From an uncultured Opitutia bacterium (lineage in GTDB: Bacteria > Verrucomicrobiota > Verrucomicrobiia > Opitutales > Coraliomargaritaceae): a stretch of 11,359 bases of DNA. The notes beneath the pieces are model-generated. The model worked only from the letters and a program-made list of their open reading frames with translations. It ran no database searches and was not told the origin of the DNA. The DNA is taken from the NCBI GenBank assembly GCA_937899295.1, contig CALBPO010000384.1, positions 1-11,359 of the forward strand, given 5' to 3'. Positions 2,459 through 6,759 of this stretch are shown here, in pieces. The translations under genes were made by a program, and so were the position numbers. Positions within the stretch are counted from its first letter, which is position 1; the number at the start of each line of letters is the position of its first letter.

Positions 2459-2824
2459 TTAGCTGCGGATCACTAATTCCTTGATTTTACTGCAATGCTC
2501 CAATGACTGTATTTTTTTTAACACCGAGCGTTTCATGAACTGTAACTCAGAGCGAAGGGTTTGATTTGTTACTGAAACGATTAGAGTGTGCTCGTCTTTA
2601 ATCCTTACAGGGTGGCAACGTTCACAGAGTCTGGGCCCGAAGATTTTTTCCCAATTTTCGACCAAGCTACGCTCTGGGCTGGGTTTCTCTAATTTGTATT
2701 GTTCTTGAAGCACTACCAGCACGCTATCAAGAAGCGCGGGCTCGTGCCGAGAAGATGTGCTCACCGTGTGTGGCAGGCCACGGAAGTCGGCGATGACATC
2801 TTCGATGTTTTTAGAAAATTTCAC
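2459..2824 (-). CDS. DUF721 / DciA-like protein
   Basis: The protein has 121 residues. From about residue 37 it matches the DUF721 pattern: NWEKIFGPRLCERCHPVRI (57-75), a beta segment HTLIVSVTNQTLRSEL (79-94), a basic helix MKRSVLKKIQSL, and an ending KIKELVIRS. DUF721 members include DciA, which helps the replicative helicase DnaB load in most bacteria that lack DnaC or DnaI; many relatives are uncharacterised. The residues LCERCHP contain a CxxC-like pair, unusual for the family core and possibly incidental. The start is GTG at 2824. No ATG is available nearby and no Shine-Dalgarno sequence is seen. The gene heads the minus-strand run dciA-like, thyA, folA, with a 129-bp gap before thyA. 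The family call is good; the DciA role is inferred. Confidence 0.8.
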   Translation of the reverse strand: MKFSKNIEDVIADFRGLPHTVSTSSRHEPALLDSVLVVLQEQYKLEKPSPERSLVENWEKIFGPRLCERCHPVRIKDEHTLIVSVTNQTLRSELQFMKRSVLKKIQSLEHCSKIKELVIRS

Positions 2825-2916
2825 TAGTGGCTTAAAAAAAAGAGAAAATTAGGAGATTTTGAGATAATTGGCACAATTTTTGTTATACAGGATACAGTTC
2901 TTTCAAACATTTTTCA

Positions 2917-3010
2917 TTTTCTCTCATGTATGGGAGTTGGGGTAAAAAATACAAAGCATAAAACAGTGTGGCGCGGGGTTTAGGGGTATTCTCCGCGTCA
3001 CTTTGCTTTT
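2917..3010 (+). ncRNA. Candidate small RNA, unit A
   Basis: This lies in the 489-bp gene-free gap. A 5' hairpin (CTCTC 2921-2925 with GGGAG 2932-2936) is followed by TTGGGGTAA (2937-2945), an A-rich linker, and an 11-bp terminator-like hairpin (2968-2978 with 2991-3001) whose loop reads TTTAGGGGTATT. The same order of elements recurs in unit B about 200 bp downstream with different stem bases but conserved pairing, which argues for an RNA selected for structure. A weak promoter is possible upstream: TTGTTA at 2880-2885 and AAACAT at 2905-2910. No coding potential is seen. It matches no RNA family I know. Ends are estimates. Confidence 0.45.
2968..3010 (+). terminator. Terminator-like hairpin of unit A
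   Basis: The 11-bp stem GTGGCGCGGGG (2968-2978) pairs with CTCCGCGTCAC (2991-3001), with two G-T pairs. The loop is TTTAGGGGTATT and a T-rich tail (TTTGCTTTT, 3002-3010) follows. The tail is interrupted, so termination may be partial. No plus-strand protein gene lies upstream, so it should end a non-coding transcript. Confidence 0.5.
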
Positions 3011-3015
3011 GATCC

Positions 3016-3124
3016 AACTAATAAGTAATTTTAATACTAACTATAAGCAAAATTAGTATATCGCACGTAGGCTTATTAACATCTTGCATATAATTATACT
3101 TATTTCACAAATAAGCTTATTAAC
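3016..3124. repeat. AT-rich stretch with repeated AATAAG words
   Basis: Between the two candidate RNAs, the word AATAAG or its complement occurs five times: 3020-3025 and 3110-3115 on plus, and 3072-3077, 3099-3104 and 3116-3121 on minus. It forms a direct repeat GCTTATTAAC (3071-3080 and 3115-3124), a perfect 12-bp palindrome AATAAGCTTATT (3110-3121), and an inverted repeat CTTATTT-CAC-AAATAAG (3099-3115). A separate inverted repeat ATACTAA/TTAGTAT lies at 3034-3059. The position just before unit B suggests regulator binding sites or a promoter region. AT richness alone produces some such repeats. Confidence 0.4.
3084..3112 (+). promoter_or_regulatory. Possible promoter of unit B
   Basis: TTGCAT (3084-3089) and ACAAAT (3107-3112) are 17 bp apart and would start transcription near 3120, just before the 5' hairpin of unit B. 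Unit A has a similar upstream layout (TTG, nine bases, ATAC; then TTTCAAACAT against TTTCACAAAT here). A TATAAT at 3089-3094 is an alternative -10 but has no good -35. The hexamers are weak matches; the shared layout is the main support. Confidence 0.3.
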
Positions 3125-3243
3125 TTTCTCCCGAAAGGGAGTTTGGGGTAACAGAAAAAGTCCTCTTTAGGTTTATCTTTAGAGGCATTAAGTAGACAAT
3201 GGTTGGCGCAGTCCTTAGGGGTAGGGACTGCGCCATTTTTTTA
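3120..3243 (+). ncRNA. Candidate small RNA, unit B
   Basis: This is the second, better-formed unit in the gap. Its 5' hairpin CTCCC-GAAA-GGGAG (3128-3141) has a GNRA tetraloop and is followed by TTTGGGGTAA (3142-3151). The middle contains a further possible hairpin (CCTCT with AGAGG, about 3162-3185). It ends in a strong terminator (3204-3243) whose loop carries TTAGGGGTAG. Compared with unit A, the linear GGGAGTT(T)GGGGTAA and the terminator loop are conserved, while stem bases differ yet still pair. No convincing reading frame is present and no plus-strand gene feeds into the terminator. A riboswitch is unlikely because dinB downstream is on the other strand. The family is unrecognised; ends are estimates. 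Confidence 0.55.
3204..3243 (+). terminator. Strong intrinsic terminator of unit B
   Basis: A perfect 11-bp stem, TGGCGCAGTCC (3204-3214) with GGACTGCGCCA (3225-3235), carries the 10-base loop TTAGGGGTAG and is followed by an unbroken run of T from 3236. This is a textbook Rho-independent terminator acting on plus-strand transcripts. Its presence without an upstream plus-strand protein gene is the best evidence that the gap is transcribed. Confidence 0.85.
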
Positions 3244-3251
3244 TTTATTTT

Positions 3252-3277
3252 AAAGCGACTCGTTAGTCGCTTTTTTT
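3252..3277 (+). terminator. Second tandem terminator
   Basis: A perfect 9-bp stem, AAAGCGACT (3252-3260) with AGTCGCTTT (3265-3273), has loop CGTT and runs into seven T (3271-3277). It lies 16 bp after the first terminator hairpin and gives the plus strand a double stop before the convergent dinB end at 3314. Read on the minus strand, the stem is followed by only three T and then A-rich sequence, so it is a poorer terminator for dinB. Confidence 0.8.
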
Positions 3278-3313
3278 GTGCTGACTATTCTTTTAGTAAG
3301 CGGGTATCACATA

Positions 3314-4363
3314 TTAAAGCCCAAGTTCCAACTGCTCGCTCCCTCCCTCGCTCTCTTTGAAACGCACGCCAATACCCAGTAATCGTATGGGCTCGCCGCT
3401 GCGCCCCCAGGCATCTTCGAGCAGTTTGTGAAAACTCGTCAACTCTGCTAGCGGGCCTGACATCTCCGCGGTGGTGCGGCGGAAGTCGCTGAACTTTAAT
3501 TTGACCAACAGTTTGGCTATCTTTCGATCGGGCGCATTTTTGCGTAAGTCTTCAACTAGCTCGCGGTGCTGTCTGTTTAAGGCTTCGCGGCAGTCTTCCA
3601 GCGTTTCTAGGTTTTTTGTAAATGTTTGCTCATTACTAAGGCTTTTGCGGATACGATTCGCTTCCACTGGCCGCTCGTCGATACCGCGACAAAGATCGTA
3701 GAGTTCCAGCCCGAAGCTACCAAATTCCTTAGCAAGCCAAGCTTTATCTCTAGTTTGGAGCTGTGCGCAGGTTTTGATACCGTGCTTGGCTAGACGGACT
3801 GAGCTTTTGGGACCGACTCCCCAAATACGCCTCACGGAGAGTTCACTCATAAAGAGGTCGACCTTTGATGGTGCCACGACGCATTGGCCGTTTGGTTTGT
3901 TCCAATCGCTCGCGATCTTGGCGATCAGCTTATTGGGTCCGATCCCCGCCGAGGCAGTCAATTCTGTCTCGGATAGAATCGCAGCGCGTATTTCCTGTGC
4001 GATCTCTGAACCGGAGCGCTTCAAATGGCTCACATCAAGGTAGGCTTCGTCGAGTGAGAGCGGTTCGACCATATCTGTATAACGGGCAAAAACTAACCGC
4101 ACAGCCTTAGAGGCAGCTCTATATAGTTCGAAGCGTACTGGTACGATAACTAGTTGAGGGCAGAGCTCACGCGCTTTAAAAACGGGCATCGCTGAACGCA
4201 CCCCAAATTCGCGAGCGGCATAATTGCACGTCGTTAACACGCCCCGACCCGAAGCGCCGCCCACCGCCAATGGGCGATTCGCTAACTCGGGGCGCTCGCG
4301 CATCTCGACTGCTGCATAAAAGCAGTCCATGTCAATGTGTATGATGCGGCGCGAGGTCTTCAT
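3314..4363 (-). CDS. dinB: DNA polymerase IV (Y-family)
   Basis: Pol IV is an error-prone translesion polymerase. Starting at ATG 4363 it has 349 residues, close to the E. coli 351. Landmarks are RRIIHIDMDCFYAAVE with catalytic Asp11, the SLDEAYLDVS motif with Asp105 and Glu106, ASAGIGPNKLIAKIASDWNKPNG (the Y-family fingerprint), a helix-hairpin-helix-like IWGVGPKSSVRLAKHGI, and the little-finger domain. It ends QLELGL, matching the E. coli C-terminal beta-clamp-binding QLVLGL. A TTG 42 bp upstream could extend the frame, but those residues are not family-like and that TTG lies inside the predicted -35 box, so ATG 4363 is preferred. No Shine-Dalgarno sequence is present. The gene is monocistronic as far as visible. 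I saw no TGTTC-N4-GAACA type LexA box upstream. Confidence 0.96.
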   Translation of the reverse strand: MKTSRRIIHIDMDCFYAAVEMRERPELANRPLAVGGASGRGVLTTCNYAAREFGVRSAMPVFKARELCPQLVIVPVRFELYRAASKAVRLVFARYTDMVEPLSLDEAYLDVSHLKRSGSEIAQEIRAAILSETELTASAGIGPNKLIAKIASDWNKPNGQCVVAPSKVDLFMSELSVRRIWGVGPKSSVRLAKHGIKTCAQLQTRDKAWLAKEFGSFGLELYDLCRGIDERPVEANRIRKSLSNEQTFTKNLETLEDCREALNRQHRELVEDLRKNAPDRKIAKLLVKLKFSDFRRTTAEMSGPLAELTSFHKLLEDAWGRSGEPIRLLGIGVRFKESEGGSEQLELGL

Positions 4364-4369
4364 AGATTT

Positions 4370-4405
4370 TTCTTTTATTACAATGTCATGGCTTTGAATT
4401 TTCAA
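4370..4405 (-). promoter_or_regulatory. dinB promoter, near-leaderless
   Basis: On the minus strand, TTGAAA (4405 to 4400) and TGTAAT (4382 to 4377) each match the sigma-70 consensus at five of six bases and are exactly 17 bp apart. The expected start is near 4370, only about 7 bases before the dinB ATG. This supports the ATG at 4363 and explains the absence of a ribosome binding site. Confidence 0.6.
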
Positions 4406-5373: not shown

Positions 5374-6759
5374 TCAGAAATCGATCAAGTAGATCGAACC
5401 TTCCGATACTTGTTCCATCTGCTCGACGGGCACCCATCGCTCCGCGTAGCTTAGACCCCACGAGTCACTCACCGCGATTTCATTAGTTGCTTTGTTATAG
5501 CCGATAATCATGCACGCGTGTGCTGACATAAAGTCTTTGCGCAAATTGACACTGCGTGCCTCGGTCTTACTTCGGTCTTTCCATGCCTCCCAATCGTAGA
5601 CACTCCGCCGTTCAATTGTGCGCTTATTAACAAAGCTGTTGTAATCATGCGAGGAGAACATCGTCCAAATAATCGGAAGACCCTCATCGATGTATTTTTT
5701 TATCGTGCGTAATTTAATCTCGCCGCTGACTTCTTTCATTGAGCGGTTTTGCGAGCCTACGTAGCCATCGACTGCATCGATAATACTCGCTAGCGAAGTG
5801 CCACCGCCGACCTGCGTCTGTCCCGCCATTGCAAGGATATACATGTCGGCGGGGATTTGCATGTAGCGTAGGTAGCGCTCAAAGGTAGCTGGGACGCAGT
5901 ATCCCTTAGGTCCCTGATCGACCATCGGTATGTTACCGATCAGCACATCACCGTTAGCTTTGGTTATGATGTTCTCCGTAGTCAATCTACGCAACTCGGC
6001 GTCGGATATTTTTTTACCGCGACCTTTATTATCAGCAGCAGAGGAGTGCATGATCTTCAGGCTGGTATACTCTCCGTCCTTAGAGGCGAGGAGAAAGGCA
6101 TGTGATTTCCAGTCCCAGCGATCAATGAGTTGTTTAATCCCTCGGCCTGCACCGAACTGTTGGCGATCTGGCTCGCCGAGTTGCTCGCTAAGGAGATTAC
6201 GGATTTGTTCAAAGTCCCGTTCAATCGCTCGCTCCATATCACCGATTTCGCCCGCGCCTGGCGAGTTACTGAATTTGAAGTCCCCCTTGTTAGCAAAAAC
6301 GATACTGACGTGCTGCACCTTACCGTCTTCAGCGTAGAGTACGGCTGAGTAGGGTCTAGCTTGCAGTAAACGGTAGTTCGCGTGCGGATAATAACGAAAA
6401 CTGCTTTGCGAGTCTGTTTTTGATTCATGCGGCCAGCTCAAGCGTTCGGCTACTGCTGCGCTGGGGTCGTTCCACAGGTTCGAATCAGTGAACAAATTGA
6501 TGCCAAGTAGTTCATTGAGAGCTTCATGTGCGTTTTGCTCCCTCGTTTCTTTATCTTTGATCATTTTTTGGCTCTCCTCGGATAGCCTTGCACGATCTAG
6601 CCAAGTTGACTGCCCATTTGCCATTTGAATTTGGATACGGGTATCATCAATTACGAGAATCTCCACCTCGATAATGATACCCTCGCGATTGGAGATTTCC
6701 ACGGCATGCAGACACAGAGTGGTGATGGCCAATAAACCAGTGAGAAGAAGTCCTTTCAT
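5374..6759 (-). CDS. Secreted C39-like cysteine peptidase, SHD1-like N-terminus
   Basis: The 461-residue protein is probably exported. It has a Sec-type signal peptide at residues 1-19 (basic Lys2, hydrophobic core, LHA cleavage site). Residues 22-67 resemble the SHD1 (SLA1 homology) beta-rich domain common in exported planctomycete and verrucomicrobial proteins (REGIIIEVEIL, LDRARLSEES). Residues 70-250 are unrecognised. Residues 270-461 look like a papain-fold C39-like peptidase: IPMVDQGPKGYCVPAT with Gln282 and Cys288 at papain spacing, His414 in SAHACMIIGYN, and Asp432 in VSDSWG. The triad looks complete, so the protein could be active, though many C39-like proteins have no known substrate. 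It is divergent from the MFS gene with 110 bp between. No ABC transporter for bacteriocin export is nearby, so maturation of a double-glycine peptide is unlikely. Confidence 0.75.
   Translation of the reverse strand: MKGLLLTGLLAITTLCLHAVEISNREGIIIEVEILVIDDTRIQIQMANGQSTWLDRARLSEESQKMIKDKETREQNAHEALNELLGINLFTDSNLWNDPSAAVAERLSWPHESKTDSQSSFRYYPHANYRLLQARPYSAVLYAEDGKVQHVSIVFANKGDFKFSNSPGAGEIGDMERAIERDFEQIRNLLSEQLGEPDRQQFGAGRGIKQLIDRWDWKSHAFLLASKDGEYTSLKIMHSSAADNKGRGKKISDAELRRLTTENIITKANGDVLIGNIPMVDQGPKGYCVPATFERYLRYMQIPADMYILAMAGQTQVGGGTSLASIIDAVDGYVGSQNRSMKEVSGEIKLRTIKKYIDEGLPIIWTMFSSHDYNSFVNKRTIERRSVYDWEAWKDRSKTEARSVNLRKDFMSAHACMIIGYNKATNEIAVSDSWGLSYAERWVPVEQMEQVSEGSIYLIDF

Follow-up and report, generated by a model that had tools for sequence, protein, structure and literature searches.

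A candidate family of tandem, structured small RNAs with two GGGGUA motifs in the order Opitutales

Several small RNAs (sRNAs) of other bacteria are driven by sigma54, among them the Qrr RNAs of Vibrio, which are present in multiple copies, GlmY of E. coli and CrcZ of Pseudomonas. RNAs of the CsrB/RsmZ type are characterized by many GGA motifs displayed in hairpin loops. In Listeria, the accessible part of the report on LhrC1-5 describes RNAs of 111-114 nt that pair with mRNA through a redundant CU-rich motif, located in two loops and in one stretch without pairing of its own (PMC4132741). For the entire Planctomycetes-Verrucomicrobia-Chlamydiae group, a 2022 review lists, in its accessible part, 8 distinct annotated sRNAs (PMC9029176).

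Our analysis concerned an 11,359-nt stretch of DNA (hereafter the window) from an uncultured Opitutia bacterium (contig CALBPO010000384.1), in which inspection of the sequence located two RNA units in tandem at positions 2895-3242, in the gap between dciA and dinB (Table 1). In both units the 5' hairpin is followed by a free GGGGUA and then by a linker, and the terminator-type hairpin at the end carries GGGGUA once more in its loop; this common order had been proposed in a first-pass annotation of the gap, and every element named there was located in the sequence. The 5-bp 5' hairpin given in that annotation holds for unit 2 (CTCCC/GGGAG), but in unit 1 the stem has six pairs, one of them G-U. 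Likewise, the presence of two units in the gap stood, but unit 1 probably starts further upstream than had been assumed, near 2895 and about 12 nt past the -12 element, since its start was estimated from the position of that element. The folding of both units surpassed that of 200 out of 200 dinucleotide shuffles (z-scores in Table 1).

Table 1. Features of the dciA-dinB region, in window positions
Feature	Position	Strand	Basis
dciA	2459-2824	minus	Pfam DciA match
sigma54-type -24/-12 element of unit 1, TTGGCACAATTTTTGTTATA (TTGGCAC...TGTTATA)	2868..2887	+	GG 2870-2871, 10 nt, GT 2882-2883
RNA unit 1 (type B), predicted extent	2895..3009	+	R1 match 2920-3002, 41 bits, E 7e-7; fold z -4.1
5' hairpin, unit 1	2921..2936	+	CTCTCA/TGGGAG, 6 pairs incl. 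one G-U
First motif copy TTGGGGTAA, unit 1, single-stranded	2937..2945	+	fold prediction
Terminator-type hairpin, unit 1	2968..3001	+	2968-2978 with 2991-3001, 11 pairs, two G-U
Loop motif TTAGGGGTA, unit-1 terminator-type hairpin	2980-2988	+	sequence
CTTGCA, possible -35 element of unit 2	3083..3088	+	CTTGC[AG] recurrence upstream of units
RNA unit 2 (type A), predicted extent, start guessed	3115..3242	+	R1 match 3125-3237, 119 bits, not independent (R1 training sequence); fold z -5.0
5' hairpin, unit 2	3128..3141	+	CTCCC GAAA GGGAG
First motif copy TTTGGGGTAA, unit 2	3142..3151	+	sequence
Optional linker hairpin CCTCT/AGAGG, unit 2	3162..3185	+	3162-3166 pairs with 3181-3185
Conserved A-rich linker TAAGTAGACAATGG, unit 2	3189..3202	+	comparison of homologues
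Intrinsic terminator, unit 2	3204..3242	+	terminator scan: 14 pairs, 4-nt loop; stem-loop 3204-3235, then T7
Loop motif TTAGGGGTA, unit-2 terminator	3215-3223	+	sequence
dinB	3314-4405	minus	impB/mucB family match

Homologues of unit 1 carry the 5' hairpin as CTCCCG/TGGGAG and in other paired variants as well. The T tract 3' of its terminator-type stem is weak, and the terminator scan of the window did not pick this hairpin. As to unit 2, the stretch TTGGGGTAACA within the first motif copy is unchanged in all 17 type-A sequences, and the linker hairpin is present only in some relatives, several others lacking the insert. A second intrinsic-terminator-like structure, a plus-strand hairpin at 3252-3273, begins 17 nt past the end of the unit-2 hairpin and is perhaps a back-up terminator or tied to the convergent end of dinB.

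The units resemble Qrr, GlmY and CrcZ as sRNAs lying behind a -24/-12 element, and Qrr also in being multicopy, but they have no Rfam match and the element precedes only some of their copies. With CsrB/RsmZ they share a repeated, short, G-rich and exposed motif, often in several copies per genome, but the motif is GGGGUA instead of GGA and occurs twice per RNA, inspection of both units disclosed no series of GGA loop motifs, and CsrA was not found in most of the genomes searched. The likeness to LhrC lies in the multiple copies, the similar length and a redundant motif placed both in a single-stranded part and in the terminator loop; however, as far as the available sections of that report go, the LhrC motif is CU-rich (UCCC) and occurs three times per RNA, whereas the Opitutales units carry two copies of the G-rich GGGGUA, and the five LhrC copies are under one two-component system, whereas the upstream elements of the Opitutales units vary by copy (PMC4132741). 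LhrC models, if contained in Rfam, gave no match to the units; by analogy, the Opitutales RNA may work like LhrC without being an LhrC. The FopS RNAs of Bacteroides, in the available sections of their description, are likewise paralogous multicopy sRNAs with an intrinsic terminator in a genome that encodes an RRM-type RNA-binding protein, but they consist of a single-stranded 5' seed stretch followed by the terminator, have no 5' hairpin, depend on one promoter class and are restricted to Bacteroidaceae (PMC11697453).

In the search against Rfam 15, no match in the window reached the gathering threshold, the one overlapping unit 2 being traJ_5 on the other strand (E 2.4), and 15 homologue loci yielded one chance-level match (E 0.72; locus L204, 3372-3462) away from the unit. 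ARAGORN found no tmRNA or tRNA match within the window, and identities as 6S, tmRNA, SRP RNA or a riboswitch are unsupported, the Rfam matches all being sub-threshold; the initial description of the family as unrecognised agrees with this result. Among the matches listed in a search of the open-access literature on sRNAs of Opitutales and Verrucomicrobia, no fitting family was found, and the available main text of a 2010 list of 104 candidate RNAs contains none of the terms Verrucomicrob-, Opitut- and Coraliomargarita (PMC2864571). The family is apparently uncatalogued and well supported.

The distribution of the units was followed with two covariance models, R1, built from 17 type-A (unit-2) homologues of the window's own and 15 other genomes, and R2, built from 55 Opitutaceae-type units. 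Although trained on unit-2 homologues, R1 recovered unit 1 with E = 7e-7, and R2, trained without the subfamily of the window, matched unit 2 at 3164-3237 with 36 bits. With reverse-strand matches left out, the A/B tandem was detected by R1 in 14 distinct genomes, all of the same family and the window's own included, within a set of 32 loci, of which one (L018) is the window itself and another (L028) repeats L005; at L007 the tandem units are spaced by about 650 nt. The recovery of unit 1 by R1 and the recurrence of the tandem support the suggestion that two related small RNAs arose by an old duplication.

When genomes were searched for a 15-base pattern built on the free motif, tolerating one mismatch, 23 of 37 gave matches, some of them by chance, and the model confirmed a unit in 19 of the 30 loci fetched in this way (again including the window and the repeated locus L028). 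Scanning of named genomes for the terminator plus its loop returned at least 118 stretches, and 78 of the 80 listed loci also match R1 at E <= 0.006, reverse-strand matches again being disregarded; since the scan pattern selects the terminator, what is new here is that the 5' half recurs as well. Most of the 80 listed loci are labelled Opitutia, Opitutae, Opitutales, Opitutaceae, Puniceicoccaceae, Coraliomargarita, Pelagicoccus or Ereboglobus, and others merely Verrucomicrobia, Verrucomicrobiia or 'bacterium'. The two R1-negative loci (Parabacteroides and Haladaptatus) and two viral contigs look like chance matches. One locus (L065, PBCW01000002.1) is labelled Rhodospirillaceae bacterium and shows the full tandem beside relatives of the window's dciA, thyA and dinB; it probably stems from a mislabelled or mis-binned genome.

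Within the order Opitutales, R1 matches 129 of 273 genomes and R2 170 of 273, or 135 of 182 when good genomes are considered; the homologous paired structure in related genomes, on which the first-pass annotation had made its proposal depend, is thus found across the order. The search of Verrucomicrobiota by covariance model that had been recommended there gave, with R2, matches in 43 of 288 genomes of a phylum-wide sample, 42 of them in Opitutales and one weak match (27 bits) outside. Twelve of 20 listed R2-negative Opitutales genomes (20 of 103) do not exceed 1.3 Mb. The number of matches per genome ranges from 1 to about 7, some of these being reverse-strand matches in which the palindromic terminator is read backwards; in one genome (G140) the matches fall at seven distinct places, of which two score low. 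In two loci (L192 and L220) an additional hairpin separates the free motif from the terminator; this variant is located behind GG-N10-GC elements and is possibly a separate old subfamily. A further locus (L215) harbors two near-identical units about 220 bp apart with similar upstream regions, a pair that is, judged by its sequence, a recent local duplication.

Covariation was counted within each type, because MAFFT misaligns the 5' hairpin across subfamilies. In the type-A set, double changes occur at 4 pairs, all of them in the terminator, and 99.6% of cells are paired; the 5' hairpin of this set has 98.8% of cells paired and zero double changes. The alignment of 55 Opitutaceae-type sequences revealed double changes in 11 of 17 pairs, five of them within the 5' hairpin, with pairing in 95.5% of cells overall, 89% in the 5' hairpin and 99.8% in the terminator. 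Shuffle controls, which ignore kinship, gave a mean of 7.6 double-change pairs, reached 11 in 1 of 500 runs and contained 26 double-change cells against the 93 observed; the control with partners slid by 1-3 columns, which does better in this respect, gave just 1-3 double-change pairs and 4-12 cells. When the 5' hairpins of 59 units were aligned gaplessly from the loop outward, 500 of 649 cells were paired, compared with a mean of 430 and a maximum of 452 in shuffles that are equally blind to kinship. Some stem pairs are invariant and hence uninformative on pairing. Individual cases can be seen in one genome (G016), two copies of which differ in the terminator stem and keep both pairing and loop, and at L223, where by eye both loop-closing pairs are altered on both sides. 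Compensatory changes thus back both stems and support the view of the units as structured RNA, and the selected structure first suspected from the differences between the two units is consistent with the covariation in the type-A and Opitutaceae-type sets.

Of 76 covariance-model units (a set from which L202, a 28-nt partial match, is left out), 73 have the GGGGTA motif in the terminator part and 61 have it in the 5' part, with 59 showing it in both; these shares are rough and somewhat inflated, since the training sequences of the models contained the motif and the two parts were separated by position. We infer that GGGGUA acts as a recognition motif. The loop copy is followed by T in 9 of 15 units with a -24/-12 element versus 2 of 61 others, the former coming mostly from the window's own family and not being independent; this bias hints at an old subfamily driven by sigma54. 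At one locus (L211), GGGTAATACCCCTAC, which is complementary to the motif, lies within 60 nt upstream of a unit.

The elements found upstream of the units are sequence matches, which we take, from general knowledge, to represent classes of sigma factors. The sigma54 consensus is GG-N10-GC. The element of the window is GG-N10-GT, with GT in place of the consensus GC, and GG-N10-GC itself precedes units in L062, L066 (Pelagicoccus mobilis), L073, L100, L192, L197, L220, L221 and L225. Type-B units, as assigned by a crude A/B rule, are preceded by a -24/-12 element in 14 of 19 cases under a strict and 17 of 19 under a relaxed definition, and the two exceptions (L026 and L050) are type A misassigned by the rule. 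Among 168 upstream regions, counted without regard to kinship and compared with shuffles that preserve letter counts alone, the -24/-12 element occurs in 22 (shuffle mean 0.2, maximum 3), CTTGC[AG] in 31 (4.1), mostly 40-50 nt before the hairpin, GGAAC[CT][CT] in 26 (2.1), TTGAC[AG] in 36 (6.7) and TGAAAC in 16 (3.7); the positions of TGAAAC are scattered, and the three elements named before it sit mostly 35-55 nt ahead of the hairpin. The background of the -24/-12 pattern is 100 matches in 2.99 Mb of loci on both strands, the unit-linked ones included. RpoN was detected in 17 of 18 genomes, the missing one being the window's own, which is 83% complete. A sigma70 scan of 2780-3320 returned zero promoters, which speaks against CTTGCA as the -35 element of unit 2. 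Single copies in other lineages likewise stand behind a -24/-12 element, and sigma70- or ECF-like elements precede other copies.

On balance, and with confidence slightly above even, we assign both units to a single family of independent small regulatory RNAs that act in trans and carry GGGGUA twice. Both units would be transcribed, and the RNAs of the family, about 75-130 nt long, would each be produced from the promoter of its own copy; in the window, transcription of unit 1 would depend on sigma54 and that of unit 2 on a housekeeping-type sigma factor. Less surely, the two GGGGUA copies may serve as redundant G-rich seeds for UACCCC-like sites in mRNA, just as LhrC of Listeria pairs with mRNA through its CU-rich repeats. 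With redundant seeds under varied promoters, several signals could therefore feed one regulatory output. Against such pairing, TACCCC was not enriched near 704 predicted starts (3 seen versus 5.7 expected); TTACCC was seen 11 times versus 6.4 expected. The search for exact long complements of either motif, which also speaks against pairing, found no target set; in the four of 38 genomes compared (G108, G129, G140 and G233), 14 of 21 and 15 of 18 exact-complement sites are the RNA genes themselves, and stop triplets within the motif compromise the control counts of this search. Hfq was found above the cut-off in none of 28 genomes, with one sub-threshold match (G014), by a search that was positive in 5 of 14 control genomes; the possibility of an Hfq-dependent sRNA was dropped on this ground.

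By analogy with known systems, redundant seed pairing is the most likely mode of action, and the titration of a protein comes second. In the latter case, which we consider rather unlikely, GGGGUA would bind a regulatory RNA-binding protein whose free level is set by the RNA copies, as CsrB/RsmZ do for CsrA. The short motif exposed twice per RNA, the multiplicity of copies with differing upstream elements and the little sign of extended complementary targets would all suit such a sponge; however, no CsrA was detected in 24 of 28 genomes, including all 14 of the window's genus, nor in any of the 18 searched genomes of the window's family, and a CsrA sponge was rejected for this lineage. Three (G025, G032 and G033) of the four genomes with CsrA also carry the RNA. 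RRM proteins are encoded in 22 of the 28 genomes, and the available sections on Bacteroides RbpB describe an RNA-binding protein that binds a 14-member sRNA family (PMC11697453). Against an RRM partner, no such protein was found in the RNA-carrying genomes G028, G032 and G033, the last two of which are 95% complete, and G024, G027 and G030 encode RRM proteins but were matched by neither R1 nor R2; an RRM protein as the sole partner was rejected, its co-occurrence with the RNA not fitting.

Tentatively, and with less assurance than we attach to trans-acting RNAs as such, the family might form an order-wide regulatory hub, in which GGGGUA twice per RNA, up to 7 copies and varied sigma factors (sigma54, ECF and housekeeping) operate mostly without Hfq and CsrA; the partner of this putative hub would be either a regulon defined by a short UACCCC seed or a novel UUAGGGGUA-specific RNA-binding protein. 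Its presence in about three quarters of good Opitutales genomes makes the family a tangible starting point for the study of RNA regulation in the absence of Hfq. Furthermore, the association of a single RNA core with varying types of promoter could make the rewiring of an sRNA network traceable across an order.

The genomic contexts of the units are diverse. One set of neighbours comprises dciA-thyA with dinB or an S1-domain protein, another a GCV_T-domain (YgfZ-like) gene with DAHP synthase, and phoH, nitrite/sulfite reductase and peptide deformylase genes were found next to further units. According to crude ORF calls around 129 units, the nearest downstream ORF of at least 110 aa is on the same strand in 55 and on the opposite strand in 58 of 113 cases, and the nearest upstream ORF of this size is on the opposite strand in 69 and on the same strand in 34 of 103. 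Unrelated contexts with the downstream gene on either strand equally often argue for independent trans-acting RNAs and against leaders. Units that are intergenic and end in terminator-type hairpins might still be cis-acting leaders or attenuators, or mere terminators of adjacent genes, a reading that is very improbable given the near-equal strands of downstream genes, the more often divergent upstream genes, the conservation of 5' hairpin, free motif and linker, and the promoter-like elements that precede many units. Spreading as DNA in the manner of a REP- or MITE-like mobile repeat, to which as many as seven places per genome could point, appears less probable still, since the stems diverged with pairing kept, upstream regions differ between copies and some positions are syntenic across genera. 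That the unit encodes a small peptide is hardly credible: UUG-GGG-UAA behind GGGAG could pass for a start region, but this frame has two codons and leaves no space for a ribosome site, differences in linker length are not always multiples of three and sequence changes track pairing.

Apart from the RNA units, the window contains at 5374-6759 a gene for a 461-aa protein, residues 276-434 of which weakly match Pfam Peptidase_C39_2 (E 2e-4, 22.2 bits, slightly below the cut-off of 24).
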